Source: a virus. From it: a stretch of 64,000 bases of DNA. The stretch lies in IMG/VR virus record IMGVR_UViG_3300018481_000020, positions 17,458-81,457 of that record; one strand, written 5' to 3'. The notes under the pieces were generated by a model. The model was given only the letters and a program-made list of their open reading frames with translations, had not been told where the DNA came from and did not search any database. Below are positions 23,774 to 39,726 of the stretch, one piece after another. The position numbers and the translations under genes were made by a program. How positions within the stretch are numbered: position 1 is the first letter of the stretch; every line of letters starts with the position of its first letter.

Positions 23774-24658
23774 ATGAGGAGTGCGTTCGGAGTCGAGCAT
23801 GTGGTGGCTGCGCCAGTCTCGAAGTCGCTCAGTGGCGGAGTCTTCAAGCCGGCCTCGAAGCTGAGCCAGGCTGAGCGCAAGACGGTGGGTGGCTACCGGA
23901 AGGCCAAGGGTGTCACCACCAGTGACGCGGAGTGGGCCAGGAACATGGGACAGGTCAAGCGACTCCACGACCAGCCCCATCCGGGAATGAGACACACCAA
24001 GACGGTGCACGGCAAGCAAGGAACCACTGAGCACTACAAGCACAACAGTCGCTCCACCGTGGTGCCACCGGGAGCTGAGGGGTTCCATGTCCGTACCGGG
24101 GGCAAGAAGGGCACCTCCTACATCCACATGAAGGACAGCGCTGGCAAGAGCGTGACCAGGCACGAGGTGGCCCACTCCACCCCGAAACGCACCAGCTACC
24201 GGATGAAGCAGATCGTCGACAACCCGAAGAAGACGATGGCCGAGGAGGGCCGGGCGGACTACGTCGCCTCGGGGCACTACCTGAAGAAGAAGCCCCAGAG
24301 TGGCTATGCCCAATCAGCTCGGTACCGCAACGCCGAGGCACGTGGGGAGAAGAGCGCGAAGAGTGCCCGGAAGTATGGTGGCAAGCCAGCGCGTGGTCTC
24401 ATGCGCGCAAGAAACGCACCATCTCGGTTCAAGGTGAAGCAAGCCAGTGGTTCGATGTCTCGAACGATGAACAAGCCAGTGGGTCGTCAGGAGATCGACG
24501 AGTACCGCCGGGTGCAGGACAAGATGCATGGCGGAGCTCCGAAGACTCCCGGGATGAGCACTCGCAAGAAGGTGGCCATCGGAGCCGGCACTACCGGTGT
24601 GGCCGGTGGCGGTACCTACGCTGTTTCGCGGAACAGGAAGAAGAGGTCGAATGGCTGA
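23774..24658 (+). CDS. SAFGVEH-tagged basic virion protein with a zincin-like HEVAH motif
   Basis: The 294-aa protein starts MRSAFGVEHVVAAPVSK, the first of the tagged set. HEVAH at residues 130-134 and EEGRAD at 157-162 match the spacing of zincin-type metallopeptidases of the ImmA/IrrE-like sort. The rest is strongly Lys/Arg-rich. The C-terminus has a small-residue stretch (VAIGAGTTGVAGGGTYAV) and a basic tail (RNRKKRSNG). Position directly before the portal, with overlap, argues for a virion or assembly role. Activity is inferred from the motif only. Confidence 0.7.
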   Translation: MRSAFGVEHVVAAPVSKSLSGGVFKPASKLSQAERKTVGGYRKAKGVTTSDAEWARNMGQVKRLHDQPHPGMRHTKTVHGKQGTTEHYKHNSRSTVVPPGAEGFHVRTGGKKGTSYIHMKDSAGKSVTRHEVAHSTPKRTSYRMKQIVDNPKKTMAEEGRADYVASGHYLKKKPQSGYAQSARYRNAEARGEKSAKSARKYGGKPARGLMRARNAPSRFKVKQASGSMSRTMNKPVGRQEIDEYRRVQDKMHGGAPKTPGMSTRKKVAIGAGTTGVAGGGTYAVSRNRKKRSNG

Positions 24659-26534
24659 CGTGCGGCTCCCTCAGGGCGACATCTCCACCTGGGACGAGGA
24701 CAACGCAGGGGACGAGGTTCCACAGCGCACCAAGCCCATGGACGAGCTGGGTGTCACCGGGGTCAAGCGTGTCTCTGGCTATGTCGATGAGGAGTTCTTG
24801 CCGGCGCTTCGGGGCCGCAAGGCGGTCCGGGTCTACCGGGAGATGTCTGCCAACGACTCCATGGTCGGTGCGCTGCTGTTCAGTATCGACAAGCTGCTGC
24901 GCGAGGTGGAGTGGAAGGTGCTCCCCGCCGAGCAGTCTGATGAGGGAGTAGCCGCCCAGGAGTTCCTGGAGTCCTGCATGGACGACATGAACGAGCCGTG
25001 GGATGGGTTCATCGGTGAGGTGCTCTCGATGATGACCTATGGCTGGAGCTGGCACGAGATCGTCTACAAGCGCCGGATCGGTCCCTGGGAGAAGGATCCC
25101 CGCAAGCGCAGCAAGTACCAGGACGGGCTGATCGGGTGGCGCAAGATGCCGATCCGGGCCCAGGAGACATTAATGCGCTGGTCCTTCGACGAGACCGGTG
25201 GGGTGAAGGCGATGATCCAGATGGCCCCGCCCCGGTACCAGACAACGGTGATCCCGATCGAGAAGTCGATCCTGTTCCGGACCGCGATCGCCAAGGGCAA
25301 CCCCGAAGGCGTCTCGCTGCTGCGTACCGCCTATCGCGCCTGGTACTTCAAGAAGCGTCTGGAGGAGTTCGAGGCGATCGGTGTCGAGCGCGACCTGGCC
25401 GGGATGCCGGTGGCCAAGGTGCCGGCGGACTACCTGACCGCAGCCAAGGGCACGCCCCAGGCCAAGACGGTGGATGCCTACCGGAAGATGGTCCGTGGGG
25501 TGCGGCGGGACGAGAACGAAGGACTGGTGCTCCCGAACCAGTACGACCCGGACACCAAGCAGCCACTGTTCGAGTTCGAGCTGATGAGCTCGGGAGGAAC
25601 CCGGCAGTTCGACACGAACTCGATCATCCAGCGCTACGAGCAGCGGATCCTGATGAGCGTGCTGGCCGACTTCATCCTGGTCGGGCACGAGTCAACCGGC
25701 TCCTACTCGTTGCACACTGACAAGACCGGGATCTTCCGGGCAGCCCTGAACTCCCTCGTCAAGTCCATCGCGGACACCTTGAACAGGTATGCAGTGCCTC
25801 GGCTATTCGCCCTGAACGGCTGGAAGCTCGACGAGCTGCCCAGGTTCGAGCCCACCAACGTGGACCCGCCCGATCTGACCCAGCTGGCCTCGTTCATCTC
25901 GGCCACCGCTGGTTCGGGGATGCAGTGGTTCCCGGACCCGGAGCTGGAGAAGTACGTGCGCGAGATCGCGCGCCTGCCGGAGATGACGGATGAGGATGTG
26001 GACTACAAGCGTCAGATGCGCCAGCAGGAGCAGGCGATGGAGTTCGCTGGCTCCCAGATGGAGCTGCTCGGGATGAAGCAGAAGGCCGAGATGACCGCTC
26101 AGGGATACACGCCGGAGCAGGCCGAGATGGCCGCTGCCTCACCGACACCGGAGATGGCTGCCCAGGAGGCTGAGCAGGCTCAGATGATGAACCAGCCGCC
26201 CCCGGAGGATCCGGCCGAGGGAGCTCGGCACAGCCGAGACCTGGAGCGGATGACCACCGAGGAGAAGATCGCGGAGAAGACCCATGCTCGGGAGAAGGAG
26301 AAGCTGCGGCTCCAGGACACCATGTCCAACCGAGACCACGGTAGGACCAAGGAGCAGATGCGCCTGAAGGACCGCTCGGCGGCCCAGAATGCGAAACTGA
26401 CCTCACAGACCCTGAAGGACAAGGCCAAGTACAGCCGGCCCAGCCAGGGACCTGCGAAGCCACCTGCAAAGAAGCCTCCTGCGAAGAAGTCCAACGTGGC
26501 CGCGAAGAAGCCACCACCGAAGAAGAAGAGGTAG
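24651..26534 (+). CDS. Portal protein (DUF935/Mu gp29-like)
   Basis: The 627-aa product has the portal core at about 30-445 (VYREMSANDSMVGALLFSIDKLLREVEW, later FILVGHESTGSYSLHTDK). A helical, Gln/Met-rich clip-to-tail region follows, then a basic Lys/Pro/Ala tail (KPPAKKPPAKKSNVAAKK). The tail resembles histone-like DNA-contact ends and is unusual for portals. Start ATG 24651 has GAGG upstream and overlaps the previous gene by 8 nt. Twelve copies would form the packaging vertex. Confidence 0.88.
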   Translation: MADVRLPQGDISTWDEDNAGDEVPQRTKPMDELGVTGVKRVSGYVDEEFLPALRGRKAVRVYREMSANDSMVGALLFSIDKLLREVEWKVLPAEQSDEGVAAQEFLESCMDDMNEPWDGFIGEVLSMMTYGWSWHEIVYKRRIGPWEKDPRKRSKYQDGLIGWRKMPIRAQETLMRWSFDETGGVKAMIQMAPPRYQTTVIPIEKSILFRTAIAKGNPEGVSLLRTAYRAWYFKKRLEEFEAIGVERDLAGMPVAKVPADYLTAAKGTPQAKTVDAYRKMVRGVRRDENEGLVLPNQYDPDTKQPLFEFELMSSGGTRQFDTNSIIQRYEQRILMSVLADFILVGHESTGSYSLHTDKTGIFRAALNSLVKSIADTLNRYAVPRLFALNGWKLDELPRFEPTNVDPPDLTQLASFISATAGSGMQWFPDPELEKYVREIARLPEMTDEDVDYKRQMRQQEQAMEFAGSQMELLGMKQKAEMTAQGYTPEQAEMAAASPTPEMAAQEAEQAQMMNQPPPEDPAEGARHSRDLERMTTEEKIAEKTHAREKEKLRLQDTMSNRDHGRTKEQMRLKDRSAAQNAKLTSQTLKDKAKYSRPSQGPAKPPAKKPPAKKSNVAAKKPPPKKKR

Positions 26535-26536
26535 TC

Positions 26537-26806
26537 ATGTACAGCGCATTCGGTGTAGATCATGGAGTGGTATCCACGACGACAGTCTCCAAGGGCCTCA
26601 ACCCGTTCAAGGCGTTCGTGGGAGCGAAGAAGGCCAAGCCGGCGGCTCAGTTCAAGCCCGTCAATCCCGGAATCAATCCTGGGTTCGGAACTCGAAAGAT
26701 CGCTCCCGGTGGACCAGTGCAGCGTGGATCCAGTGGTGGCTCGAACGCCATGGAGGACCAGCGGAAGACCGCTCTAGCTGCGGTACAGAAGCCACGGAAG
26801 GTGTAG
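26537..26806 (+). CDS. SAFGVDHG-tagged small basic protein, 89 aa
   Basis: The N-terminus MYSAFGVDHGVVSTTTVSKGL shares the tag and, at DNA level, a 21-bp exact match (26573-26593) with the gene at 38175. The remainder is Lys/Pro/Gly-rich and probably disordered (KKAKPAAQFKPVNPG). It sits 2 nt after the portal gene and 2 nt before a 1234-aa protein. Likely an internal head protein. Confidence 0.75.
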   Translation: MYSAFGVDHGVVSTTTVSKGLNPFKAFVGAKKAKPAAQFKPVNPGINPGFGTRKIAPGGPVQRGSSGGSNAMEDQRKTALAAVQKPRKV

Positions 26807-26808
26807 CC

Positions 26809-29800
26809 ATGCCGTACACGTCAGATGCTCAGCGCAAGTTCATGCACGCGAAGCATCCTGAGATCGCGGCGAAGTGGGATGCCGAGATCCGTGGGAAGAA
26901 GAAGAAGATCGCGAAGGGCTGGGCCAAGCCGATCGGCATCGGCGTGGGAGCCAGCGTGCTCGGTGGTGCTGCGGCCAACCAGATTCCTCCAGTGCAGAAG
27001 ACTGAGTGGTACCAGGAGCGCCGGCGCAAGAAGAAGAAGAAGGGTCAGATCAAGAAGATGCTGGCCCCGGTCAGCGATGACCCCTTCTTCAACCAGGAGG
27101 CGGCCCAGAAGACCTTCGACCTGATCATGAAGATGGACGACGACACCGCTGCGGTGTTCTGCTACATCGTCGCCTCGGACCTCCTGGAGCGGGAGGTGGA
27201 GGAGAACCGGGTCACCCTGCAGAAGCACCTGGACGAGGTGGTGGCCAAGCGACTGACTGATCTGAAGAAGGCCACCCTGCGGGCGGTCAGCAAGGGCATG
27301 GAGAATCCTCAGCCGTACGCCCAGGCGCTGGCCATGATCGACTCGATGATCAGCAAGGCTGATGACGACATCCCGGACTGGGAGTTCGAGCGCAAGATCA
27401 AGCGCGACCCCTCCTCGGGTCGGTTCCGGACCAAGTTCAGGTCCACGCCGCTGAAGAAGCCGATGCCAGACAAGACTGCGAAGACGCTGGGGATCGCAGG
27501 TATCACCGGTGATAGGTACAAGAACAAAATGAGTCCCAAGGAGAAGGCCCGCTACCAGCACCAGTACCTGCAGATAGCCGACTTCCTGGGCGCGGTGAAT
27601 GCTGCCACCGATGGCGACAACGAGACCTTGGTCCACTTCCGGAACGAGGCGACCGGAGAGACCTGGGCAGAGAAGGCCACCAGCACCAAGCCCATGACCA
27701 CCATGCTGGAAGAGAACGTCTGGGCGGTAGCTGCCGAGGCGAAGCCAACCACCCTGTCCGTGGGCGGGGCGGCGTTCAGCCTGGCTGGAGCAGCCGGCAA
27801 GACCATGTCTGCTGATCAGGTGAAGGCCTTCAACACCGCTGGGGAGAAGAGTGACGAGTGGAAGGCCTCCTGGCTCACCGACGATAACGGGCAGAACCAG
27901 AATGCTCGGCTCTACCAGCGCACGCACACTTTGGGGACGGTGGCCCAGGAGCTGGGGCCTGATGGCAGCAAGGTTCAACTGGCCGGCAAGATGGCCTCGA
28001 TCGTCGGACAGTACGGACCTCAGGCCGAAGAGGTGCTCGGGCCCAGTGCCAGGAAGACCGCCTACCGGTACCGGGGCACGGAGCGGACTCCCGACGAGCG
28101 GCTGATCGGTATGTACTCCCGGGCTATCGATCAGAACAAGCGCCAGGGCGGGCTCAACCCCTTCGAGGAACAGGCTGAGAACCGGATCAGGACTGCGCGC
28201 GGAGCCAAGAAGCAGCCGTTCGGGTCTGAGACCGGAGTACGTGGCAAGGGATCTTCGCGGCCTATGGCTCAGCCCGGAGTCACGCCGGCGATCACCCAGA
28301 TGGTCCGGGAGCGAGAGGCTGCTGCCGGTCGTGCACCGGATTGGCGTGAGCGGGAGTTGGGCCGGGTGGCAGTACAGCGCTACCTGATGGACGAGCTGCC
28401 CTCCAAGAAGTACTACAAGCTCCAGCTGGCATCAGGGAACACGCCGCCTTCCGAGGGTGTGATCATCAACTCCGAGGGCCAGATCGTCACCCAGGCCGTG
28501 GGCTATGGCGATGACCACTACCTGCCGTTCAACCTGAAGAACCTCAAGGGACTCAAGGGCGGGGAGTACATCCGGAACCGCTCGGTGGGTGGGCTGACCG
28601 CCGAGGATGTGTACACCGGGCTGATCAGCGGAGCCCGCCGGGTGACCGTGGTATCCCGCTCGGGAACGTTCACGATGGAGTTCAAGCCGGACTTCCGGGG
28701 TGGTCGGCGGCACAACGACAAGGCTCGGCGGATGACCAGGCGCTACGAGCAGGTCCTGGATGCGGTGCAGTCTGAGCAGGTAGAGCGGGCCCCCGTGCCG
28801 ATGCGTTGGCGCAAGATGATCGAGGAAGAGGTCAAGGCCGAGTACGGGCCCACTGCTTCACCGCGTCTGGTTCGGGCCGAGATCGATGCTCGGGAGAGGG
28901 AGTTCAAGGCCAACCCTCAGGTCAACGGTCGGGACATGGATCGGGCCGAGGCCAGCATCAGCCAGTTCGAGGAGCAGCAGAAGCGAGGCCTGGTCAGTGC
29001 ACAGGACGTGGCCGACTACCGCAAGCAAATCCATAGTGAGCTGCGCGATCTCAAGGAGATCCACTTCCGGCTGAACGGGGTCGGCTACGAGGCTGCCCTG
29101 GACTCCTTGCGCGAGCAGTTCCCCTACTACATCGACGCCCAGTCGCACCCGACCGCAGAGAACCTGGAGGGTGAGATCCAGGAGCACGAGATGGACATGG
29201 GCTACGTGGAGCCCGGCCGGAATCGACCCACCTCGGCCCAGGCTGGCTGGTTCGGCACTCGCAAGGAGGAGAGCGGCAAGTTCTCTGCGGCCTACTCCGA
29301 TTACCAGCGTGGTCTGCCGGGTACGCCGGAGCCGCACGGGCACCCGCGTGAGAAGGGGAAGTTCAAGCCCACCAACGTCACTTCTTCCACCGGCTCTTCT
29401 GGCGGCGGTGCGAGTGTAGGCCTGCGTTCGGATCGTGAGCGGACTCGGGACGCTGCGATTGAGGCCCTCCAGGCGAACCAGGCCAAGGAAGGTGTGATCA
29501 GCTCCGCAGTGGCCCTGCAGCAGGCAGTCAAGGTGCACAAGCCGCCCACGGGTATCTCCACCCCGGAATGGTGGTATCACTCCGAGGATCAGATGCGGGA
29601 GTACCTGGGCAACGATGCGAACCGGAAGAAGTTCGACACCACCGTCAGCCAGATCGGAGCGGCCGACTTCGATGAGGCCGGAGCCTCACGGCCGTGGCAG
29701 GCCTACCAGACCGCCCGCAAGCGCACCGGTGGTGGTAAGCCCTACTCCCCTGAGCACGCAAACACCTGGCCGACGGAGGGCCCGTACAAGTTCACTGGTG

Positions 29801-30513
29801 ACAACGAGCGGGATGCCTACCGGGCCAGCCCGTTGCCCGGTGCGGTTGATATTGAGGTCAAGCGACTGGATGGTGAGGACACCTCACTGAAGTTCGGTCG
29901 ACCACTGTCCGCGCTCAACGGCCGTGAACTCCGCGAGGAGTTCGAGCTGTCCAAGAACGTGCGCGAGGCGATGAAGACTGCGAAGCTGCAGGGCACGGCA
30001 GCCCAGGACGCACTGGGCTCGCAGTTCCAGAACTCTGGATCTGCCTTCGCCAGCAACTTCTTCCGCGACGACGCTGGTGCCGCCAAGCACTTGGAGAACA
30101 TCCACCGGATGCACCACCTGAAGTCAAAGAGTGGTGGTGGAACCACGGGTGGCGGACCTGTCGGTGGAGTCGGTGGCTTCGGACGGCCCACTCCTCCCCG
30201 ACCTGGTGGACAAGCTCCTAGTGGAGCCAGGGTCCAACCTCCGCAAGGTGGTGGTGACAGTAGTGGTCGGTTCGTGGAGCTCGACCCAGACGACGAGAGG
30301 TTGGTCGAGGACGCTCGTCGGAAGTACCTGAAGGCTGCCGAGCAACTCATCTTGAATCCGGAGAGTCAAGAAGAACATGATGCGCTGTACATGTTCAAGG
30401 AAGGGATGAAGGGGTCTCATCCGGCGAAGGGATTCAATGAGCACACCAAGTGGCTCGAAGAGCTGCCTGACAAGACTCGGACGAAGCTATATGCGCAAGC
30501 GGGCTACTCGTGA
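26809..30513 (+). CDS. Large capsid-module protein, 1234 aa, unknown function
   Basis: It starts MPYTSDAQRKFMHAKHPE, a motif (MPY.SdAQRk.mHA) seen at the start of small phage head proteins, then a small-residue stretch (IGIGVGASVLGGAAANQIPP). A KRDPSSGRF motif at about residue 199 and HPREKGKF at about 847 are known phage linker motifs. A mid-region (YIRNRSVGGLTAEDVYTG, SRSGTFTMEFKPDFRG) is well structured. Long helical and disordered parts follow. It lies between the portal and the MuF-like gene. Internal head or ejected protein is the best guess; no enzyme motif was recognised. Confidence 0.65.
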   Translation: MPYTSDAQRKFMHAKHPEIAAKWDAEIRGKKKKIAKGWAKPIGIGVGASVLGGAAANQIPPVQKTEWYQERRRKKKKKGQIKKMLAPVSDDPFFNQEAAQKTFDLIMKMDDDTAAVFCYIVASDLLEREVEENRVTLQKHLDEVVAKRLTDLKKATLRAVSKGMENPQPYAQALAMIDSMISKADDDIPDWEFERKIKRDPSSGRFRTKFRSTPLKKPMPDKTAKTLGIAGITGDRYKNKMSPKEKARYQHQYLQIADFLGAVNAATDGDNETLVHFRNEATGETWAEKATSTKPMTTMLEENVWAVAAEAKPTTLSVGGAAFSLAGAAGKTMSADQVKAFNTAGEKSDEWKASWLTDDNGQNQNARLYQRTHTLGTVAQELGPDGSKVQLAGKMASIVGQYGPQAEEVLGPSARKTAYRYRGTERTPDERLIGMYSRAIDQNKRQGGLNPFEEQAENRIRTARGAKKQPFGSETGVRGKGSSRPMAQPGVTPAITQMVREREAAAGRAPDWRERELGRVAVQRYLMDELPSKKYYKLQLASGNTPPSEGVIINSEGQIVTQAVGYGDDHYLPFNLKNLKGLKGGEYIRNRSVGGLTAEDVYTGLISGARRVTVVSRSGTFTMEFKPDFRGGRRHNDKARRMTRRYEQVLDAVQSEQVERAPVPMRWRKMIEEEVKAEYGPTASPRLVRAEIDAREREFKANPQVNGRDMDRAEASISQFEEQQKRGLVSAQDVADYRKQIHSELRDLKEIHFRLNGVGYEAALDSLREQFPYYIDAQSHPTAENLEGEIQEHEMDMGYVEPGRNRPTSAQAGWFGTRKEESGKFSAAYSDYQRGLPGTPEPHGHPREKGKFKPTNVTSSTGSSGGGASVGLRSDRERTRDAAIEALQANQAKEGVISSAVALQQAVKVHKPPTGISTPEWWYHSEDQMREYLGNDANRKKFDTTVSQIGAADFDEAGASRPWQAYQTARKRTGGGKPYSPEHANTWPTEGPYKFTGDNERDAYRASPLPGAVDIEVKRLDGEDTSLKFGRPLSALNGRELREEFELSKNVREAMKTAKLQGTAAQDALGSQFQNSGSAFASNFFRDDAGAAKHLENIHRMHHLKSKSGGGTTGGGPVGGVGGFGRPTPPRPGGQAPSGARVQPPQGGGDSSGRFVELDPDDERLVEDARRKYLKAAEQLILNPESQEEHDALYMFKEGMKGSHPAKGFNEHTKWLEELPDKTRTKLYAQAGYS

Positions 30514-32528
30514 CCATTGCGCCGTTCGTCGAGCTCGGGTTCCACCCGACTGATCTGCGGCCTGGGGATCTGCCCAAGACCGGGGCATTCCTCGGATCCC
30601 CGGCCGAGGCGATGGAGGCCGCGCTGGCCATCGTCCGGGCTCGGATGGTCGACCAGATGCACGCCGAGATCAAGGGGATCGCACAACCCACTCAAGCCCA
30701 GCTGCTGACCATCATGGACCTGGCCTGGCAGGGCATCTTCCCGGCGTTCCGGAAGGTGTCCGCCCCGATGATGGCCGATGCCTATATCCGGGCATACCGC
30801 TCAGCTGATGCCGGTGACGTACCGCTGAGTGTGATCTACGCACTGGCTGACAAGCATGCGGAGAAGGTGGGGCTGTACTTCTACGGATCCTCCCGCGAGG
30901 CTATGGCCGAGGGGTTCAACACCCTGGTCAACCGGCGATTGCCGGCCAAGGCTGCTGCTGGGAAGTTGATGGATGCCTGGGGTCTGACTCCACGGCAGGT
31001 GCAGGCGTTCATTGCTTCCCAGCAGCTCGATACTCCAGTGAAGTCGGCGTCCCCATTCGCACTGAAGGCCAGGGCCCGGGCCTACATCGACCGAGCCTTC
31101 ACCTCCAGGGCCAAGAAGCTGAGTGCTCAGGAGGAGCACAACATCGAGGAGCAGGCGAAGCAGTACGCCTGGATGTGGCTCCAGGACAAGGGCCGGCTGT
31201 CGAAGAAGGCCCAAAAGATCTGGATCACCGCCAAGGACGAGAAGGTGTGCAAGGTCTGCGGTCCGCTGAACGGGAAGAAGGTCGGAGTCAATGAGCAGTT
31301 CCGCACCCCCAAGGGAGAGTTCTGGACTCCCGGTGTGCACCCGAACTGCCGCTGCTATATCCGGCTGATCGAGAACCGGTTCTCCAAGTCCGCCTTCGGG
31401 ATAGTCAGGAAGGACCTGGCCGGCACTGCCCTGGCGGAGTTCAACGAGCTGCACCCACGCACGGAGTCAGGTCGGTTCGGTACCAAGGCCCGGACCAAGA
31501 CCATCGATGTGGATGAGGAGTTCAAGCGGCTGGTGTCCCAGCCGAGCTTGATCAAGCCGGTACGACACCTCACCTACGCCGATGCCGAGCCTGATCCCGA
31601 GATCGACGAGCAGTTCTTCCAGCTGATCTCAGCCCAGCCGAAGCGGCGGGGGTTCACCTCGGTCTGGGGCAGCCCACTGGAGGTGAAGACCTTCCGGGAG
31701 GAGGCAAAAGCACAGATCGCTGATGTCGAGCCGATGATCAACTTCGCCGCTGACGTGGCGGTAGAACTAAGAGCCAAGTCCAGGCTGGAGACCAAGCCGA
31801 AGCAGCGGATGAAGACTCCGACCATCCCTGTCGGGCAGCCGGCGTTCGCCGTGATCCAGAACGAACTACTTGGAGACGGAGAGATCGACCGGATCCGTTT
31901 CAACCACGGCGTCACCTTCCATACCGACGCGATCGGCGCGGCCCAGGAGGCTGGCGAGCTGAAGAAGGAAATCGTCGATCGCAAGGTGGACGACATGATC
32001 GACCAGCTCGCTAAGGATCGTGGGCGGACGGTCAAGATGGAGGACCCGAAGACCGGGGAGATGCTCTACGCCAAGATGAGGCCCAAGGACATCGAGGCGA
32101 TTGCTGACTGGTACGGGCGGAGCGCTACCTCGCATCACCACGATGACTTCGATCCTGAAGACCTGGAAGATGAAGGTGCTCAGCTCGACTGGGGGGACCG
32201 GGAGGGGACTGTGGTCACTTGGTACAACGAGAAGGGCGAGGCCTGGGGAACAGACCAGATGTCCTATCGCCATCTAGGTCACACTTACTTTGCGCAACGA
32301 TCCTCGGACTACGAGGTCTATGTGGCCGGGATTGACCAGATTGCGACTGATAGTGAAGTGAACGACATCAGCGGTAGCGCGAACAGCAGGCACCGGGAGT
32401 TCAGTGTCGATGGCGACTACGTGCTCCGCCCGGAGACAGTGAAGCGGACCAAGGCTGATCACTTCTACGACGCCACCAGCTTCATGATGGACCCGGAGGG
32501 ATCCGTGGAACTGCCCAAGGACGAGTAG
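30510..32528 (+). CDS. MuF-like minor capsid protein with a long C-terminal extension
   Basis: Residues 1-290 match the Mu gpF-like head morphogenesis fold, with KDEKVCKVCGPLNGKKV and the closing VHPNCRCYIRL Cys pair. At residue 294 the peptide SAFGIVRKD follows immediately, then an ELHPRTESGRFG linker and about 350 residues of unknown, partly acidic domain (EAIADWYGRSAT; DWGDREGTVVTWYNEKGEAWG). MuF proteins attach near the portal and often carry effector domains at the C-terminus. GTG 30510 overlaps the preceding stop. Confidence 0.8.
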   Translation: MTIAPFVELGFHPTDLRPGDLPKTGAFLGSPAEAMEAALAIVRARMVDQMHAEIKGIAQPTQAQLLTIMDLAWQGIFPAFRKVSAPMMADAYIRAYRSADAGDVPLSVIYALADKHAEKVGLYFYGSSREAMAEGFNTLVNRRLPAKAAAGKLMDAWGLTPRQVQAFIASQQLDTPVKSASPFALKARARAYIDRAFTSRAKKLSAQEEHNIEEQAKQYAWMWLQDKGRLSKKAQKIWITAKDEKVCKVCGPLNGKKVGVNEQFRTPKGEFWTPGVHPNCRCYIRLIENRFSKSAFGIVRKDLAGTALAEFNELHPRTESGRFGTKARTKTIDVDEEFKRLVSQPSLIKPVRHLTYADAEPDPEIDEQFFQLISAQPKRRGFTSVWGSPLEVKTFREEAKAQIADVEPMINFAADVAVELRAKSRLETKPKQRMKTPTIPVGQPAFAVIQNELLGDGEIDRIRFNHGVTFHTDAIGAAQEAGELKKEIVDRKVDDMIDQLAKDRGRTVKMEDPKTGEMLYAKMRPKDIEAIADWYGRSATSHHHDDFDPEDLEDEGAQLDWGDREGTVVTWYNEKGEAWGTDQMSYRHLGHTYFAQRSSDYEVYVAGIDQIATDSEVNDISGSANSRHREFSVDGDYVLRPETVKRTKADHFYDATSFMMDPEGSVELPKDE

Positions 32529-32550
32529 CGCAGATGAGGACGATGGAGCT

Positions 32551-33591
32551 ATGAGCACAGTGCATGAGCTGCTGGCCACCGACGACACGTTCCGTGAGGT
32601 GGCTGATCTGCTGTTCGGTGGGGGCGGGGACCAGCTGATCAGCAAGATGAACCCGGCCCAGTCCGATGTGGGTTCCCATGGCGGGATGTCGGATCAGAAG
32701 AAGCGGAAGATCACCGCCGGCCTGAGCGCAGTAGGTGCGGCTGCTGGTGGTGCTGGTCTGGCGCTCGGGGGACACAACGTCAGGCGTGGCTACAAGACCG
32801 CTCGTGGCCTGCAGAAGGCCGGCCAACTCGCTGGTGGGAAGAAGAAGGCACTCAAGACTGCCGTCAGTCACGAGAAGCTGGCCACTGGACTGGTTCCACT
32901 GGAGATAGCTGGTCTGACCGGTGAGATCGCGGCCACCAAGATCCTGCACGGGGACACCAAGAAGAAGCAAGGCTCATTGGTCAAGAAGAACCTGGGTGAA
33001 CTGCTCAACAACGCTTCAGACAAGGCACCGAGCAAGCGGAACGCTACCAAGGCTGTACTGGACCCGAACAAGCGGCGCAAGGGTCTGGAGTACACCAAGA
33101 AGACCGGAGGCGCGCTGCGCCGACTGCCGGACAAGGTGAAGACCACCAACGAGGTGAAGAAGTCAGAATCGCCCACAGACCAGGTCGAGGTGGTCTGGGA
33201 GGGCGAGATCGCCAAGGCGGACTCCGACAAGCAGCAACTCTTCGGCTGGGCCTCGGTGATCGAGGTCAACGGCGAGCCGGTGGTGGACCTGCAGGGTGAC
33301 TACATCTCCGCCGATGAGATGGAGAAGGCCGCCTACTCCTATGTGCAGAAGTCTCGCAAGGGCGGGGACATGCACCTGCGTGATGAGTGGGAGCCGATCC
33401 AGAAGTCGGAGATGATCGAGAGCTTCATCGTCACACCCGAGAAGCGTGAGGCCATGGGTCTGCCGGAATCGGTGCCCACCGGCTGGTGGGTGGGGTTCAA
33501 GGTCAACGACCCCGATGTCTGGTCCAAGGTGAAGTCGGGCGAGCGGACCGGGTTCTCGATCCACGGGCAGGGTCGGCGCACGCCGGCGTGA
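32551..33591 (+). CDS. XkdF-type prohead protease with a membrane-like N-terminal extension
   Basis: The last 130 residues match the XkdF putative phage serine protease family: QLFGWASVIEVNGEPVVDLQGDYI, then ESFIVTPEKREAMGLPES, then VGFKVNDPDVWSKVKSGERTGFSIHG. The first 200 residues are unusual, with a small-residue stretch (ITAGLSAVGAAAGGAGLALGG) and a long Lys-rich region. The family is thought to process scaffold and head proteins. Neighbours (scaffold, tagged proteins) are candidate substrates. Confidence 0.75.
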   Translation: MSTVHELLATDDTFREVADLLFGGGGDQLISKMNPAQSDVGSHGGMSDQKKRKITAGLSAVGAAAGGAGLALGGHNVRRGYKTARGLQKAGQLAGGKKKALKTAVSHEKLATGLVPLEIAGLTGEIAATKILHGDTKKKQGSLVKKNLGELLNNASDKAPSKRNATKAVLDPNKRRKGLEYTKKTGGALRRLPDKVKTTNEVKKSESPTDQVEVVWEGEIAKADSDKQQLFGWASVIEVNGEPVVDLQGDYISADEMEKAAYSYVQKSRKGGDMHLRDEWEPIQKSEMIESFIVTPEKREAMGLPESVPTGWWVGFKVNDPDVWSKVKSGERTGFSIHGQGRRTPA

Positions 33592-33595
33592 TCCG

Positions 33596-34912
33596 ATGAT
33601 CAGCGCATTCGGCGTGGACCACGGGGGCGAGGTCTCGAAACTGGACGACCAGCAGAAGAAGCAAGCCGCTGCCGGTACCGCCGTAGGAGTCGGTGGGGCT
33701 GCGGCTGCCTCCCAGGTCCGGGTGCCCGAGCACTCGCACTACAACAAGAAGACCCGGGCCTACCTGCACACACTGCCAGCTGGGGTGCACGAGGTGGACA
33801 CCGCGATGCTGGGCAAGCGCCCCCGCAAGCTCGGAGCCAGGAAGCAGCAGACTCCGTACGTGGCCGCGATGGCTCAGGAACGTCCCGCGCCTTACTCGCC
33901 GGTGCCGATCACTCGATACAAAGGTGACAAGGGCGTCATCCAGCGTGACAACGCCCACTCGGTGATGGCAAACGCGATGAAGGGCAGGAAGACCACCATC
34001 AAGATCGAGGACTCTCCGCATCACCGTCCGGTTCGTCCCGCTGGTGAGGAAGCGGTCCGTCGACTCCAGGGCAGGTACCAGCAGCGCCGGCTGAGGCAGA
34101 ACACGAATCTGTCTGAGAAGAAGATCAACCAGCACGTGAAGGCATACAAGCCAAGCTCGCGGAAGGCCAACACCACTAAGCGCCCGCACGGTGTGATCGA
34201 GGATCAGATCAAGTCCAGTCGGCACAAGTACGGGGCCAAGGTGGCCTTGGGTCTGATTCGCAAGGATCAGCGACGCCGAGACACGGCCGCTGGAGCTGCC
34301 GGGGTGGCGGGCGGAGGCGTACTGGCCACCACCCCGGTTCGGCGCTCGGGAGCCAAGGTGAAGATCCACGAGACCAAGTCGGGACCAAGGATCAGGTCAG
34401 CCGAGGCCAAGAAGATCGTCAGTCCCGGCTACCGGCCAGGCAACCGACGGGCCATCCAGGGGATGGCACACAAGCTGCCGAAGAACGCTCAGGGCCCAAC
34501 CAAGGTGATCAGATACAAGGGCGGCCAGGTGATCCCCTGGGACGGCAACCACCGTGCCACCGCACGGATCGCGCGCGGGGACAAGTCCATCCCGGTCAAG
34601 GTGATCGAGGGTGGTGAGCGGCCAGCAGTCAGCGTCACCCGAAATGCCATCCATGTGGGACAACAGCGGGTGCACCAGCGTCGGATGAACCGTGGGGACT
34701 TCACATCTCTGGGCAAGCCGAGCAAGCCAGGCAAGGCCTACCACGCCATCGCCAACGCCTCTCCGACTCGATCCGGCCGCAAGGAGCTGACCACCGTCCG
34801 AGCTGCCTCCGGTCCGACCAAGGCAGCGCTGCGTACCAAGCAAGGTGCGACAGTTACCGCAGGAGCAGCTCTCCTGGGAACTGCTCACCACCTGAACCGG
34901 AAGAAGGACTGA
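33596..34912 (+). CDS. SAFGVDHG-tagged basic virion protein with two ParB-like modules
   Basis: The 438-aa product starts MISAFGVDHGGEVSKL. Module 1 (residues 105-140, ITRYKGDKGVIQRDNAHSV) and module 2 (304-340, VIRYKGGQVIPWDGNHRATA, ending IPVKVIEG) align with each other. Module 2 resembles the ParB/sulfiredoxin-like fold, with DGNHRATA where ParB has GERR or DGHHR. Three small-residue stretches (22-39, 230-247, about 420-432) and a very basic composition resemble the other tagged proteins. The ParB-like assignment is moderate confidence; activity is unknown. Confidence 0.65.
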   Translation: MISAFGVDHGGEVSKLDDQQKKQAAAGTAVGVGGAAAASQVRVPEHSHYNKKTRAYLHTLPAGVHEVDTAMLGKRPRKLGARKQQTPYVAAMAQERPAPYSPVPITRYKGDKGVIQRDNAHSVMANAMKGRKTTIKIEDSPHHRPVRPAGEEAVRRLQGRYQQRRLRQNTNLSEKKINQHVKAYKPSSRKANTTKRPHGVIEDQIKSSRHKYGAKVALGLIRKDQRRRDTAAGAAGVAGGGVLATTPVRRSGAKVKIHETKSGPRIRSAEAKKIVSPGYRPGNRRAIQGMAHKLPKNAQGPTKVIRYKGGQVIPWDGNHRATARIARGDKSIPVKVIEGGERPAVSVTRNAIHVGQQRVHQRRMNRGDFTSLGKPSKPGKAYHAIANASPTRSGRKELTTVRAASGPTKAALRTKQGATVTAGAALLGTAHHLNRKKD

Positions 34913-34913
34913 G

Positions 34914-35804
34914 ATGGCGCGAGCAATGAGCGACACCGAGATCAGGCATCGCAAGAAGCTCCAGGCCGGGGCCTCCCAGGCTGGCGGCGTGCTCGGACTG
35001 ACTGCGCTCGGCGGCACCATGGTGGCCAGCAGGGGCGGTCGGAACACCCTGCGCAAGATCCCACAGCTGAAGTCGCGACTGGCTGCCCCGCCGCCCAAGG
35101 ACCCGAACCGGGACCGGATCAAGGGCGCGGTCACCCCAGTGCTGGCCACCGGGGCTGGTATCGGTGGAGCCTCGGCGTTCAACTTCGCCTCCTATACCCG
35201 CGCGGAGTCCAAGAAGCGACAGAAGCCAGCGGTGGTCGGCCAACCACCGTCACGGATCAAGAAGAGAGAGGACGAGCCGATGGAGATGGGCTACTACGGT
35301 GAGGTCGGCCGTCCCGTCCGACTCACCGAGATCGAGGTGCCAGTCAGCAAGGCCTGGCAGCCATCGGCCGGGAACTTCGACTCCGAGACCGCTCGGAAGA
35401 AGCGGACCAAGGGATACCAGGGCGCTGCCCTGGTCGGGGCGGGTGCCGGTGGTGCCTATGCCGGACATCACGGGATGAAGGCCGCACACGCGGCTGGCAA
35501 GATCAAGCCAGTCTCGATGGGCCTCATGGAGACCAGGACGGTTGACGCCCATGGGACCACCCGCCGGGTGCCGAAGGTGGCCGGCAGAAGGGGTTCCAAG
35601 AAGGCGCACGTGATCGAGGAGAAGGCGATCCCGACGAAGGCGCTGAAGGCTGCTGGCAAGCATGGTGGTCGAACTGCCCTTGGAGTGGGTGCGGTGGCCG
35701 CTGCTGCCGGCACTCATCGGGCGCTGAAGCGCAAGGAGAAGGGCTCCTGGCAGCCATATGCGAAGCGTGACTCGGCCAGCGCGTTCGGAATCAACCACGC
35801 ATGA
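34914..35804 (+). CDS. Multi-segment membrane-like virion protein with a C-terminal SAFGINHA tag
   Basis: The 296-aa protein has at least four small-residue stretches (QAGGVLGLTALGGTMVAS, VLATGAGIGGASAFNFAS, AALVGAGAGGAYAGHH, TALGVGAVAAAAGTH), each followed by Lys/Arg/His. Its last residues are SASAFGINHA, so the tag is at the opposite end from the other family members. It lies between the ParB-like gene and the scaffold. Likely an internal or ejected protein able to contact the host membrane. Confidence 0.65.
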   Translation: MARAMSDTEIRHRKKLQAGASQAGGVLGLTALGGTMVASRGGRNTLRKIPQLKSRLAAPPPKDPNRDRIKGAVTPVLATGAGIGGASAFNFASYTRAESKKRQKPAVVGQPPSRIKKREDEPMEMGYYGEVGRPVRLTEIEVPVSKAWQPSAGNFDSETARKKRTKGYQGAALVGAGAGGAYAGHHGMKAAHAAGKIKPVSMGLMETRTVDAHGTTRRVPKVAGRRGSKKAHVIEEKAIPTKALKAAGKHGGRTALGVGAVAAAAGTHRALKRKEKGSWQPYAKRDSASAFGINHA

Positions 35805-35844
35805 GTGGACAGCACCGTGAGACTGAGAACTAGAGGTAGATGAA

Positions 35845-36675
35845 ATGCCACGTCCAAGGATGAACTTGACCGACATGGATATCGATGAGATCTCCACGGT
35901 CGACAAGGCAGCGAACCAGCTCTCGCGGTTCGTCATCGCGAAGAGGGCTCCCGAGGAGGATGAGATGCCCAAGCTTTTCAACCAGGAGGGACAGCCCCTC
36001 GATGAGCAGGACCTTGAGTTCGGTGATGTTGTGTTCGACGACCAGGGCAATGCCTATGAGTACGTCGAAGACGGCGACACCGAAGAGTACGAAGTGCACG
36101 AAGAAGAGTCTCAGCCAGAGCTTGCCGGAGTCGGCAAGCGGGCACCGGAACAGTCCGCCTTCTTCGAGAACAAGCCTCAGCAGGGCTCGTTCACTGCATC
36201 GGTGATGGAGGAGCTCTCCAAGGCGTTCTCCGATGAGGATCGCGACCAGGTGATCGCCAAGGCGCTGGGTCGGGTCGAGCAGATCGAGTCCCAGTTCAGT
36301 GAGGTCGCCAAGGCGGCCCAGGCTGAGCGCGACCTTCGGCTCACTCGGGAGTACATCTCCAAGGCCGCCGAGTACAACCTCCCGGTCGACGCAGCTGAGC
36401 TTGGTCCGGTGCTCTACCGGATGGCCGAGCAGATGAGCTATGACGACTGCTCGGTGATCGCCAAGTGCCTGGAGACGGCCGGCGAGATCATCTACGAAGA
36501 GGTCGGCTACCAGGGTGGCGGCGACAACGCCGATGTCTACTCCCAGGTCGCGCAGCACGCCTACGACACATTCGGCAAGGCCGAGGACTTCACTGAGGTC
36601 ACGGCCATCAACAAGGTGTTCGACGACAACCCGGATGCCTACGACGAGTACCTGGCCGCGCAGCGGAACCAGTAG
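35845..36675 (+). CDS. Capsid scaffold protein
   Basis: The 276-aa product begins RPRMNLTDMDIDEISTVDKAANQLSRFVIAKR, a motif common at the N-terminus of scaffold or XkdF-associated phage proteins. It continues with a very acidic region and then long helices (VMEELSKAFSDEDRDQVIAKALGRVEQIESQF). Its place just before decoration and major capsid genes fits. It is a probable protease substrate during head maturation. Confidence 0.7.
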   Translation: MPRPRMNLTDMDIDEISTVDKAANQLSRFVIAKRAPEEDEMPKLFNQEGQPLDEQDLEFGDVVFDDQGNAYEYVEDGDTEEYEVHEEESQPELAGVGKRAPEQSAFFENKPQQGSFTASVMEELSKAFSDEDRDQVIAKALGRVEQIESQFSEVAKAAQAERDLRLTREYISKAAEYNLPVDAAELGPVLYRMAEQMSYDDCSVIAKCLETAGEIIYEEVGYQGGGDNADVYSQVAQHAYDTFGKAEDFTEVTAINKVFDDNPDAYDEYLAAQRNQ

Positions 36676-36693
36676 GAAAGGTAGGGAAGCTCG

Positions 36694-37098
36694 ATGGCAT
36701 ACGAAGAGAGCCTCAGATCCATCACGCTGAACGCGGATGCGTCTCTGGGCATCTACACGGGCGTGCCGGGCCAGCCGGGCTCCCCCGATCCTCACGGAGC
36801 GAAGCAGTATCACTTCGTGAAGGTGACTGGGGTCCACCAGGTAGGTCTCGCCGACGCTGCCGCCACTACGGTGGTCGGGGTGCTGCAGAACAAGCCTCAA
36901 GGTCCAGGCCAGGCTGCCACGGTCGGCTACCACGGAGTGACCAAGGTCGTCTCCGACGTGGCGCTCACCGCTGGTGACCCGATCAAGGTCAGTGCCGATG
37001 GCCAAGCCGCGAAGACCGGAGCTGGTCCCACTGTCGGGATCGCGCTCAACACCACTGCTACCGCTGGAGAACTCGCCGTTGTTCTCCTGACGATCTGA
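36694..37098 (+). CDS. Capsid decoration/cement protein (DUF2190-like)
   Basis: The 134-aa product has the small beta-barrel pattern of capsid decoration proteins (GVLQNKPQGPGQAATVGYHGVTKVVSDVALTAGDPIKVSADG, ending AVVLLTI). It is encoded between scaffold and major capsid with a GAAAGGTAGGGA ribosome-binding region upstream. It likely binds the outside of the expanded head. Confidence 0.75.
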   Translation: MAYEESLRSITLNADASLGIYTGVPGQPGSPDPHGAKQYHFVKVTGVHQVGLADAAATTVVGVLQNKPQGPGQAATVGYHGVTKVVSDVALTAGDPIKVSADGQAAKTGAGPTVGIALNTTATAGELAVVLLTI

Positions 37099-37111
37099 GA
37101 GGAGTCAAGAC

Positions 37112-38110
37112 ATGCCGAACCCCACTCAGAGCGATCTCCACGTCAACGTTCCGCTGACCAACGTCAGCGTCGCGTACATGCAGGACAAGGCGACGTTCAT
37201 CGCGGACAAGGTGTTCCCGAGAGTTCCGGTCAACAAGCAGAGCGACCTGTACTGGAAGTACTCGAAGTCCGATTGGCGTCGTACCGACGCGCAGAAGCGT
37301 GCGCCCGGTACCGAGACTGCTGGTGTTGGCTGGAAGGTCGACACGGGGCAGTACTTCGCCGAGGTCTGGGGTGTCCACAAGGACATCGACGACCAGGTGC
37401 GGGCCAACGCCGACAGCAACTGGCGGCTGGACTCGGACGCCACCACCTTCGTCACGAACCAGCTCCTGCTGCGCCGTGACCTGGACTGGAACGACAAGTT
37501 CTTCAAGACCGGCCAGTGGGGTACCGACCTCGCCGGAGTCACCGGGACTGTAGGTGCTGGTCAGTTCCTGCAGTGGAGCGACCCGAACTCAGACCCGATC
37601 GTGCAGTTCTCGGACTTGCAGACCAACTTCGTGGAGCAGTCTGGTCGCAAGGCCAACACGATGGTCCTCGGAGCGCGAGCGATCACCCAGCTGAAGAACC
37701 ACCCGGACATCATTGACCGGATCAAGTACACCCAGCGTGGTGTGGTGACCACCGATCTGCTCGCCAGCCTGTTCGATGTCGAGCGGATCCTGGTCAGCTA
37801 CGCGACGGTGACCGACGTGGCCGAGATCAACGACGCCAAGGCTCAGGACGCTGCGGCGACGTACCGGTTCATGTCCAACTCCAAGTCGGCGCTGCTCTGC
37901 TACACCCCGAGCTCGCCGTCGCTGATGACGCCGGCCGCTGGCTATTGCTTCACCTGGAACGGATACCTGGCTGGCAACAAGTTCGGGATCCGGATCAAGA
38001 ACTTCCGGATGGAGCCGATCGCTGCGGACCGCATCGAGGGAGAAATGACCTACGACATGCGCGTCGTGGCGCGGGACATGGGCATCTTCCTGTCCAACGC
38101 TGTGGCCTGA
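37112..38110 (+). CDS. Major capsid protein
   Basis: The 332-aa product has HK97-fold features of the 'major capsid protein E' type: an N-terminal VAYMQDKATFIADKVFPRVPV, the E-loop region (SDLYWKYSKSDWRRTDAQKRAPGTE), a central VLGARAITQLKNHPDIIDRIKYT, and YRFMSNSKSALLCYTP near the end. A hairpin follows its stop. Cleavage of an N-terminal pro-region is not evident from the sequence. Confidence 0.88.
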   Translation: MPNPTQSDLHVNVPLTNVSVAYMQDKATFIADKVFPRVPVNKQSDLYWKYSKSDWRRTDAQKRAPGTETAGVGWKVDTGQYFAEVWGVHKDIDDQVRANADSNWRLDSDATTFVTNQLLLRRDLDWNDKFFKTGQWGTDLAGVTGTVGAGQFLQWSDPNSDPIVQFSDLQTNFVEQSGRKANTMVLGARAITQLKNHPDIIDRIKYTQRGVVTTDLLASLFDVERILVSYATVTDVAEINDAKAQDAAATYRFMSNSKSALLCYTPSSPSLMTPAAGYCFTWNGYLAGNKFGIRIKNFRMEPIAADRIEGEMTYDMRVVARDMGIFLSNAVA

Positions 38111-38124
38111 TCACACGATCTGAG

Positions 38125-38155
38125 GTGGGCTGTGGGTTAACCTCCTGCAGCCCAT
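38125..38155 (+). terminator. Hairpin after the major capsid gene
   Basis: GTGGGCTG at 38125-38132 pairs with CAGCCCAT at 38148-38155 (8 bp with one G-U), loop 15 nt, followed by only CTTTC. The loop contains the palindrome GGTTAACC (38135-38142). The weak U-tract suggests a partial terminator or mRNA 3' stabiliser that keeps capsid mRNA abundant relative to downstream genes. Confidence 0.55.
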
Positions 38156-38174
38156 CTTTCAATAGGAGCCAAGG

Positions 38175-38507
38175 ATGGAATCAGCGTTCGGTGTAGACCA
38201 CGGAGAGATCTCCACGACGACAGTCTCCAAGTTCGCATCCACTCTCGTTGCTGGTGGCGCTGGTGGTGTTGCTGGATCCAAGCGAGCCAAGAAGAAGTAC
38301 AAGAGTCAGGCGGCAACTTCGGGAATGCTGCGTACTGCAGGTGGCGAGCTCGCTGGCCAGACGGTTGGCGGTCTAGCTGGATTGGCTGCTGCTCGGGGTC
38401 GGCCAACTGGGATCCTGGCTGGCGGCGCAGCTGGCAGTGTCGGGGGCGGCGTCCTCGGCAACGCATCAGCACGCGGGAAGGCCAAGCGCGAGGGGTGGAC
38501 GAAGTAG
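38175..38507 (+). CDS. SAFGVDHG-tagged Gly/Ala-rich protein, 110 aa
   Basis: It starts MESAFGVDHGEISTTTVSKF after an AATAGGAGCC ribosome-binding site. The 21-bp block 38211-38231 is identical in DNA to 26573-26593 in the first small tagged gene, a sign of recent shared origin. Two small-residue segments (TLVAGGAGGVAG and GILAGGAAGSVGGGVLG) and a basic tail (SARGKAKREGWTK) follow. Probable internal or membrane-active virion protein. Confidence 0.75.
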   Translation: MESAFGVDHGEISTTTVSKFASTLVAGGAGGVAGSKRAKKKYKSQAATSGMLRTAGGELAGQTVGGLAGLAAARGRPTGILAGGAAGSVGGGVLGNASARGKAKREGWTK

Positions 38508-39032
38508 ATGCCCAGTCAACTGCTCGCCAACGACAAGATCTCCTTCGTGGTCTGCAAGCCGTTCACCTCGCGCGGCAAGGACTACCAGACAGGTGACGAC
38601 TTCCCGCAGGAGGAAGCCCGAGACATCGAGGTGTTCGTCCGAGCCCGGTTCGTGATCCCGGTGGTCGACGACATCGAGGACAAGAAGTTCATCCGGCACT
38701 GGCACAAGGAGATCCGCCCCAAGGACGAGGTGCTGGCCCGGCTGTTCCATGACCGGGTCCAGCTGCGGATGCACCACGAGCCGGACTCCGAAGAGGTGGT
38801 CAGCATCGAGAAGCTGGTCCGTCCGAACTCTCCGGACGTGCCAGACGACGATGGTCAGCCCGAGCTGCCCTTCGATGAGCCCGCCGTGGCGGCCCACAAG
38901 GACCAGTACGACCCCAGCTACCACACGGTGGTCGAGGTCAACGAGTACCTGGCTGTCCATCCAGAGGAGCGAGAGCGCATTCTCGAAGATGAGCGCGGCG
39001 GCAAGAACCGCAAGGGAATCTTGGAGGTGTGA
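38508..39032 (+). CDS. Head-associated protein with SH3-like start, 174 aa
   Basis: The N-terminal 60 residues (FVVCKPFTSRGKDYQTGDDFP, then FVRARFVIPVV) look like a small SH3-like barrel seen in phage head-completion proteins. The C-terminal TVVEVNEYLAVHPEERERILEDERGGKNRKGILE is a helical motif common in actinophage head genes. The middle is acidic. Likely a head-to-tail interface or capsid-associated protein. Confidence 0.6.
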   Translation: MPSQLLANDKISFVVCKPFTSRGKDYQTGDDFPQEEARDIEVFVRARFVIPVVDDIEDKKFIRHWHKEIRPKDEVLARLFHDRVQLRMHHEPDSEEVVSIEKLVRPNSPDVPDDDGQPELPFDEPAVAAHKDQYDPSYHTVVEVNEYLAVHPEERERILEDERGGKNRKGILEV

Positions 39033-39385
39033 TGACGACCAGTGCATTCGGAGTCGACCACGGCTTCGAGGATGTTGAGAAGGCTTTCGGCATGGGCGGC
39101 GGTGGCGCGTTGGGCGGTGGCCTGCGCAAGCTCGGTCAGAACATCGGGATGGGCGCGCGCAAGGGTGCGGCCGGAGCCGGCAAGATGGCCCGGCCCAACG
39201 TCGGTGCGGGCGGGGCTCGTGGAGTTCTGGGTAGGGGCCAGGTTCAGGCCGGTCGTGGTCTGAAGCAGGCTAGTAACTTCGCCATGAAGCGGCCCGGACT
39301 CACTGGCGGGCTCGCCGCCGGCGGTACAGCTGGTGCCGTCGGTGGCGGTGGGTACGCCATGGGGAACCGCCGTAGGCAGTACTGA
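39032..39385 (+). CDS. SAFGVDHG-tagged Gly-rich protein, 117 aa
   Basis: The protein opens MTTSAFGVDHGFEDVEKAF after GGAGG (39023-39027) and ends in RPGLTGGLAAGGTAGAVGGGGYAMGNRRRQY-type sequence (residues about 87-117), a small-residue membrane-like segment plus cationic end. The middle is Gly/Arg-rich. Its stop overlaps the next ATG. Same family as the following gene. Confidence 0.75.
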   Translation: MTTSAFGVDHGFEDVEKAFGMGGGGALGGGLRKLGQNIGMGARKGAAGAGKMARPNVGAGGARGVLGRGQVQAGRGLKQASNFAMKRPGLTGGLAAGGTAGAVGGGGYAMGNRRRQY

Positions 39386-39726
39386 TGTACAGCGCGTTCG
39401 GGGTCGACCATGGAGACATCTCCAAGGGCCTCAAGCTGAGCTGGGCCAAGCGACCCAGGAAGCTGACCCGTGCCCAGATACGCACTCAGGGCCAGGGCAC
39501 TGGCAAGGGCACCCGGACCGAAGCCGTCACCAGGAAGCTGAAGAACGCCACCGAGACTCCCGTCTCGATCGCCGGCACGGGTCGCGCTGCTGGTCGAGGT
39601 ATCACTGGAACTGGCGCGTTCATGCAGAACCACCCTGGGGTCACCGGCTCCGCTCTGGTGGGAGGGGGCGGAGCAGCCGCGTATCACCACCTGAAGCAGA
39701 AGGAACCGAAGCGGAGGTCATCCTGA
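39385..39726 (+). CDS. SAFGVDHG-tagged basic protein, 113 aa
   Basis: The start reads MYSAFGVDHGDISKGL. The C-terminal module HPGVTGSALVGGGGAAAYHH is the same as in the previous gene ('PG[LV]TG' followed by small residues) and ends KEPKRRSS. The middle is Lys/Arg/Thr-rich. It overlaps the neighbours on both sides by 1 nt, so the genes are translated together. Confidence 0.75.
   Translation: MYSAFGVDHGDISKGLKLSWAKRPRKLTRAQIRTQGQGTGKGTRTEAVTRKLKNATETPVSIAGTGRAAGRGITGTGAFMQNHPGVTGSALVGGGGAAAYHHLKQKEPKRRSS

Follow-up and report, generated by a model that had tools for sequence, protein, structure and literature searches.

A short peptide tag at the ends of diverse basic proteins in a group of uncultured phages is a probable capsid-loading signal

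Seven exact copies of the pattern GCNTTYGGNRTNRANCAY and one degenerate copy lie in the window, a 64,000-nucleotide stretch of an IMG/VR virus record of 81,457 bases in which the tag occurs on the coding strand only. In dinucleotide-preserving shuffles 0.01 such copies were expected, and none of 100 shuffles reached seven. A sequence-only reading had named eight SAFG sites as marks of at least eight tagged proteins, and all eight sites exist; they and the other features given below are on the plus strand. Six of the copies follow the start methionine within a few residues, as had been reported. The peptide reads SAFGVEH at residues 3–9 (23780..23800) of a HExxH metallopeptidase-like protein (gene 23774–24658), and SAFGVDH, starting at residue 3 and extended to SAFGVDHG, in an 89-aa protein (26543..26563; gene 26537–26806), in a protein with weak evidence for a ParB/sulfiredoxin-like fold (33602..33622; gene 33596–34912) and in the products of genes 38175–38507 (38181..38201) and 39385–39726 (39391..39411). 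The SAFGVDH of gene 39032–39385 (39041..39061) starts at residue 4, or at residue 5 with a GTG start at 39029. One copy is C-terminal: SAFGINH (35778..35798) belongs to SASAFGINHA, which does form the end of the protein encoded at 34914–35804. The degenerate copy, FSK-SAFGI-VRK (31380..31412), is internal to the MuF protein of gene 30510–32528. Its SAFGIV (31389–31406) stands at residue 294 as stated, but not exactly at the end of the MuF domain, since the domain match ends at residue 284 and the tag lies in the linker, 10 residues further on.

The MuF head protein passes the curated cut-off of PF04233 (33.5 bits against 29.6). Gene 32551–33591 encodes an XkdF-type (Peptidase_S78_2) prohead protease, the proposed processing enzyme, which matches PF14550 at E=4.5e-22 (78.8 bits, curated cut-off 24); tagged genes flank the protease gene. 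A scaffold-like protein (35860..36675, with the ORF extending to 35845) and the major capsid protein (MCP; 37112..38110, phrog_1005, E=7.3e-89) are untagged and are candidate receptors of the tag. Core proteins lack the tag (MCP 0/70, scaffold 0/69, protease 0/45), with the exception of two MuF proteins that have internal copies; a single SEYGITH in a w43006 relative was rejected as a chance match. Every copy had been placed between the portal and the first connector. This rule fails in the window itself, where gene 23774 lies upstream of the portal gene (24651–26534), and in relatives, where tagged genes are also found beside fibre-like genes 10–20 kb upstream and, in one phage (G010), after the tape measure gene. 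Clustering in a broader sense holds: the late cluster contains all 53 tagged genes of seven genomes, and most tagged genes lie between the protease and the connectors.

Several other features of these head genes were observed. The portal protein ends in a Lys/Pro-rich tail, KKPPAKKPPAKK (26460–26534), which is present in relatives too. A 1234-aa protein begins with an N-terminal module, MPYxSxAQRxxxHAxHPxIAxxWDxE (26809–26890), which is also found on other basic head proteins in relatives (G001, L219, L225, L229) and may be a second head tag of a mobile kind. In several phages the MuF linker is followed by an HPRxxxGRF or RDxxGRF-like motif (31413–31480), which in some carriers comes after the tag. 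The N-terminal region of the protease (32650–32670) contains NPAQSDV (NPTQSDL in relatives), which matches the start of the MCP, MPNPTQSDLHVN (37115–37135); this stretch of the protease may mimic the arm of the capsid protein. PHROG 1530, labelled DNA methyltransferase, strongly matches the protease (E=3.9e-25), and this label is probably an annotation error. A homology of the tag to the protease N-terminus (LLFGGGGDELISK), suggested by eye, was rejected after its profile score proved no better than that of shuffled proteins.

Proteins packed with DNA are often basic. The carriers had been described as otherwise dissimilar, which is true of their sequences but not of their character, as all of them share a basic, Gly/Ala-rich composition. 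After removal of the tag, 212 carriers formed 82 single-linkage groups at E <1e-3, an upper estimate because low-complexity filtering may split true families. Every one of the 212 bodies has a net positive charge, compared with 23% among 536 untagged proteins; the median net charge per residue is +0.137 versus -0.029, Gly+Ala content is 30% versus 17%, and GxxxG-type repeats are present in 71% versus 13%. Of the 101 basic genes in the interval from protease to tail tube of tag-positive loci, 88 carry the tag. Basic genes are fewer (median 1 versus 4) in tag-negative relatives, which are represented by only five loci. Nearly all of the more than 200 tagged proteins have no known function; a Pfam search with 20 large carriers returned almost nothing but one Gly-zipper above cut-off (in L230). 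Enzyme-like carriers comprise the HExxH family and, at low confidence, a putative ParB/sulfiredoxin-like fold: the AlphaFold2 model of the 33596–34912 protein has a mean pLDDT of 46.5, and its leading fold matches are to ParB/sulfiredoxin at a best E of only 6.6e-3. This protein had no Pfam match and no PDB sequence match. The AlphaFold2 model of the metallopeptidase-like protein (mean pLDDT 40) was discarded as unusable. Metallopeptidase, ParB-like and MuF-linked domains have been discussed as packaged and injected (PMC5512222).

A pattern scan of IMG/VR gave at least 119 stretches, and among the matches listed about half were real tags and the rest chance frames. In 30 whole records with pattern-matched loci, the window's own included, the matches lay on one strand per record, and a reversed control pattern was found in none of the 30. 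Since these records were picked via the pattern, a fair test requires a sample picked by the MCP alone, for which 80 viral loci were chosen regardless of the tag. Nearly every locus in this sample with an MCP identity of at least 74% was tagged, apart from a few short or edge loci that had no tag or in which gene calling was impossible; at 63–71% identity the tag was patchy, and below 60% it was present in none of the gene-called loci. Two scans run to completion support its specificity: SAFGI[DE]HG returned 27 stretches, all terminal tags except for one unrelated internal family seen three times, and S.WGV[DE]HG returned nine, four or five of them apparently genuine tags of the phage group. 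A master set of related IMG/VR phages (147 loci, forming 62 groups at 97% identity) had 471 matches on the tag strand versus none on the opposite strand. Isolates with an MCP 42–47% identical carried neither a SAFG[VI]xH tag nor any other repeated terminal peptide, none of the cultured relatives found had the tag, the peptide had no match in a phage collection, and a literature search for it returned no paper. A GTDB scan yielded only five MCP relatives, the best 59% identical, which were untagged apart from the fifth (38%), which could not be gene-called; the label 'actinophage' used in the sequence-only reading is therefore unproven. The tag is specific to one group of uncultured phages, and it is real, strongly selected and more widespread than first noted.

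The search for the motif at protein ends, which had been proposed as a check, found 225 distinct contexts. The tag is N-terminal in 180 of these (at residue 3 in 144), C-terminal in about 37 and internal in a few, and a single phage has as many as nine copies. The core is SAFG[VI][DE]H, and the tightest C-terminal copies read SAFGVEH-stop. Some relatives have SxWGV[DE]H instead, and SVWG, SPWG, SYWG, SAWG and SPFG variants occur in relatives with an MCP 67–71% identical. Two multi-copy W phages (L215 and L230) contain the W form only, which would follow if a single partner served all copies within a phage, although recent duplication predicts this equally. A W copy inside an SAFG phage was seen in only one clear case, SAWGIEH in L018, a sequence that L029 and L064 also have.

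Among 206 SAFG copies the residues S, A, F, G and H are invariant, which for the searched letters is partly built in because the set was gathered by peptide search. The diversity of codons and the absence of DNA identity are not artefacts of this collection. Third codon positions are near-random, with near-maximal entropy; all six Ser and four Gly codons are used, those of Gly4 about equally; SAFGVDH is encoded by 86 distinct DNA versions among 98 copies; and the 47 within-phage pairs that share one seven-residue peptide all differ in their DNA. Invariant residues together with near-random third positions indicate that selection acts on the peptide and, judged by these codons, the tags are old and kept by selection at the protein level. 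The 21 identical bases reported between genes 26537 and 38175 (26573–26593 and 38211–38231) do exist, but they encode STTTVSK, just past the tag, and the bases of the tag core differ between the two genes. Together with the 0/47 identical pairs, this leaves the idea that the tag spreads by recent duplication unsupported, and recent DNA copying of the tag was rejected. In G018 the ParB-like gene and an apparent 34914-type gene form a single protein of 827 residues that is tagged at both ends, and in W-form relatives the 34914-type protein stops before the point where SAFG phages append the tag, which suggests that the tag is modular. The SWxPYAKR stretch before the C-terminal tag of the window (35740–35765) resembles the GRSYxP with which the untagged 34914-type proteins of relatives end.

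A new finding is an h-x-K triplet, a putative release site, that separates the tag from the body whichever end is tagged. It is VSK in genes 23774–24658 (23816..23824, a family-wide pattern), 26537–26806 (26585..26593, the end of the 21 common bases), 33596–34912 (33632..33640) and 38175–38507 (38223..38231), VEK in 39032–39385 (39074..39082) and ISK in 39385–39726 (39418..39426), and for the C-terminal tag of 34914–35804 it is YAK, upstream of the tag (35757..35765). [IVF]xK follows N-terminal tags in 173 of 176 cases, or 72 of 75 with one per group, against a mean of 4.3 in random windows of the same proteins, which measure enrichment and not blind prediction because the patterns were picked after viewing the sequences; the gap is 0–5 residues in nearly all. 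Upstream of C-terminal or internal tags, h-x-K is present in 38 of 40 contexts, and when C-terminal representatives of the commonest (SWxPY) tail type are set aside it precedes the tag in 18 of the remaining 19 (random mean 2.1, to be read in the same way). The order of triplet and tag thus flips with the tagged end, the triplet always standing between tag and body, and MuF proteins with an internal copy have K triplets on both sides of it. Such a flip fits a putative release site, whereas in a docking motif of two parts the order should stay fixed.

The observed tag, its positions, the protein-level selection, the late accessory genes that carry it, the basic carriers and the reversal of h-x-K are probably best explained by a capsid-loading signal with a protease cut site, similar to the capsid targeting sequence (CTS) of T4 but usable at either end. 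SAFG[VI][DE]H would be a short docking peptide, located at either terminus and rarely in a linker, that draws accessory head proteins into the procapsid and is connected to its cargo by a flexible spacer and the h-x-K triplet. Its receptor would be the scaffold, capsid or portal protein; when the gene content of tagged and untagged relatives was compared by eye for a receptor gene, no gene fitted the pattern. After assembly a cut at the triplet, probably made by the neighbouring XkdF-type prohead protease, would free the basic, Gly/Ala-rich cargo, which would stay with the packaged DNA and be ejected with it. This reading is weakened by those tagged genes that neighbour fibre-like genes or follow the tape measure gene, and by the lack of a tag on the scaffold and major capsid proteins, which are the usual substrates of prohead proteases.

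Encapsulin cargo-loading peptides are short terminal peptides that recruit unrelated cargo to an HK97-fold shell. They resemble the tag in kind, in being short, terminal and placed on unrelated cargo, but that shell is not a phage head and the peptide has no processing site. The T4 internal proteins IPI, IPII and IPIII, divergent small head proteins, have a short N-terminal CTS of 10 residues, cut by the prohead protease gp21, in which the targeting and processing residues are separable (PMC9026906). Here, too, a short conserved N-terminal peptide stands on several unrelated proteins that are encoded with the head genes of a phage having a prohead protease, and one peptide would combine separate targeting and processing residues. 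The cleavage motif of gp21 is [LI]-x-E. The putative cut site of the tag is [IV]-x-K, with K and not E in the third position, and the protease is XkdF-type; the tag also differs from the T4 CTS in being C-terminal (about 37 contexts) and internal as well, and in having a nearly invariant core, carriers of about 82 groups and as many as nine copies in one phage. As it is not restricted to the N-terminus, the tag would be T4-like in its working but falls outside the T4-CTS family as defined. Loading, receptor, cleavage and ejection are here parts of the best explanation that we infer from sequence. The T4 analogy of the sequence-only reading survives in the protein-end positions, the late cluster, the variable accessory set, the untagged core, the selection on the peptide and the h-x-K triplet, but not in the strict portal-to-connector location or the spread by recent DNA duplication. 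In phage P1, the head-packaged DarB has an N-terminal capsid targeting signal of <30 residues and the ParB-like DdrB belongs to the same packaged set, but the Dar proteins share no consensus (PMC9024508), unlike the single consensus across all carriers here. In SPN3US, where many head proteins are packaged and ejected, the prohead protease gp245 removes N-terminal propeptides from several of them after the short motif A-x-E, but these propeptides are mostly long and a short tag at both ends has not been described (PMC10052503).

Alternatively, the peptide could bind the carriers to a shared hub to form an internal core or ejection apparatus with glycine-zipper membrane segments and DNA-binding basic tails, in which the carriers would be structural parts and not a varying cargo, and removal of the tag would be unnecessary. 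The zipper-like Gly/Ala-rich segments in 71% of the carriers, the one Pfam Gly-zipper, the basic bodies and the late-cluster location would all suit such an inner body, but a carrier set of about 82 groups that varies by phage is unlike a fixed structure and the h-x-K triplet is left unexplained unless the tag is removed, so that we regard this as unlikely. The triplet beside each tag and the position of tagged genes on both sides of the protease gene would also be expected if SAFGxxH were purely a recognition site for the XkdF-type protease, with entry into the head by other means. That is improbable given the untagged MCP, scaffold and protease, all of them typical prohead protease substrates, and given that some C-terminal tags end no more than seven residues from the stop, where a cut would remove almost only the tag.

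Targeting to the portal, neck or tail lumen, and not to the head interior, would accommodate the tagged genes among neck and connector genes, the one after the tape measure gene and the several beside fibre-like genes; we consider it very improbable, since the majority of tagged genes map to the interval from protease to connectors and the carriers are strongly basic, like DNA-associated proteins. It is hardly credible that the element acts at the DNA level, as a recombination seed, homing target or translation enhancer whose translation is conserved by chance: the 21 bp common to genes 26537 and 38175 point that way, but the full use of Ser and Gly codons, the 86 DNA versions of SAFGVDH, the absence of DNA-identical within-phage pairs and the presence of the tag at C-termini do not.

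Beyond the capsid-loading reading itself, it is plausible, if somewhat short of probable, that the tag constitutes a phage-wide, position-independent encapsidation code, in which a seven-residue label and a release site load an interchangeable set of basic effectors and ejection proteins into the heads of an entire clade of uncultured phages. How phages select the proteins packed beside their DNA is poorly known. If the capsid-loading reading is true, a single searchable label would provide a testable packaging rule by which packaged proteins could be recognized from sequence alone, the present set would hold over 200 candidates for packaged proteins, and the peptide might serve as a compact tag with which proteins could be loaded into virus-like particles.
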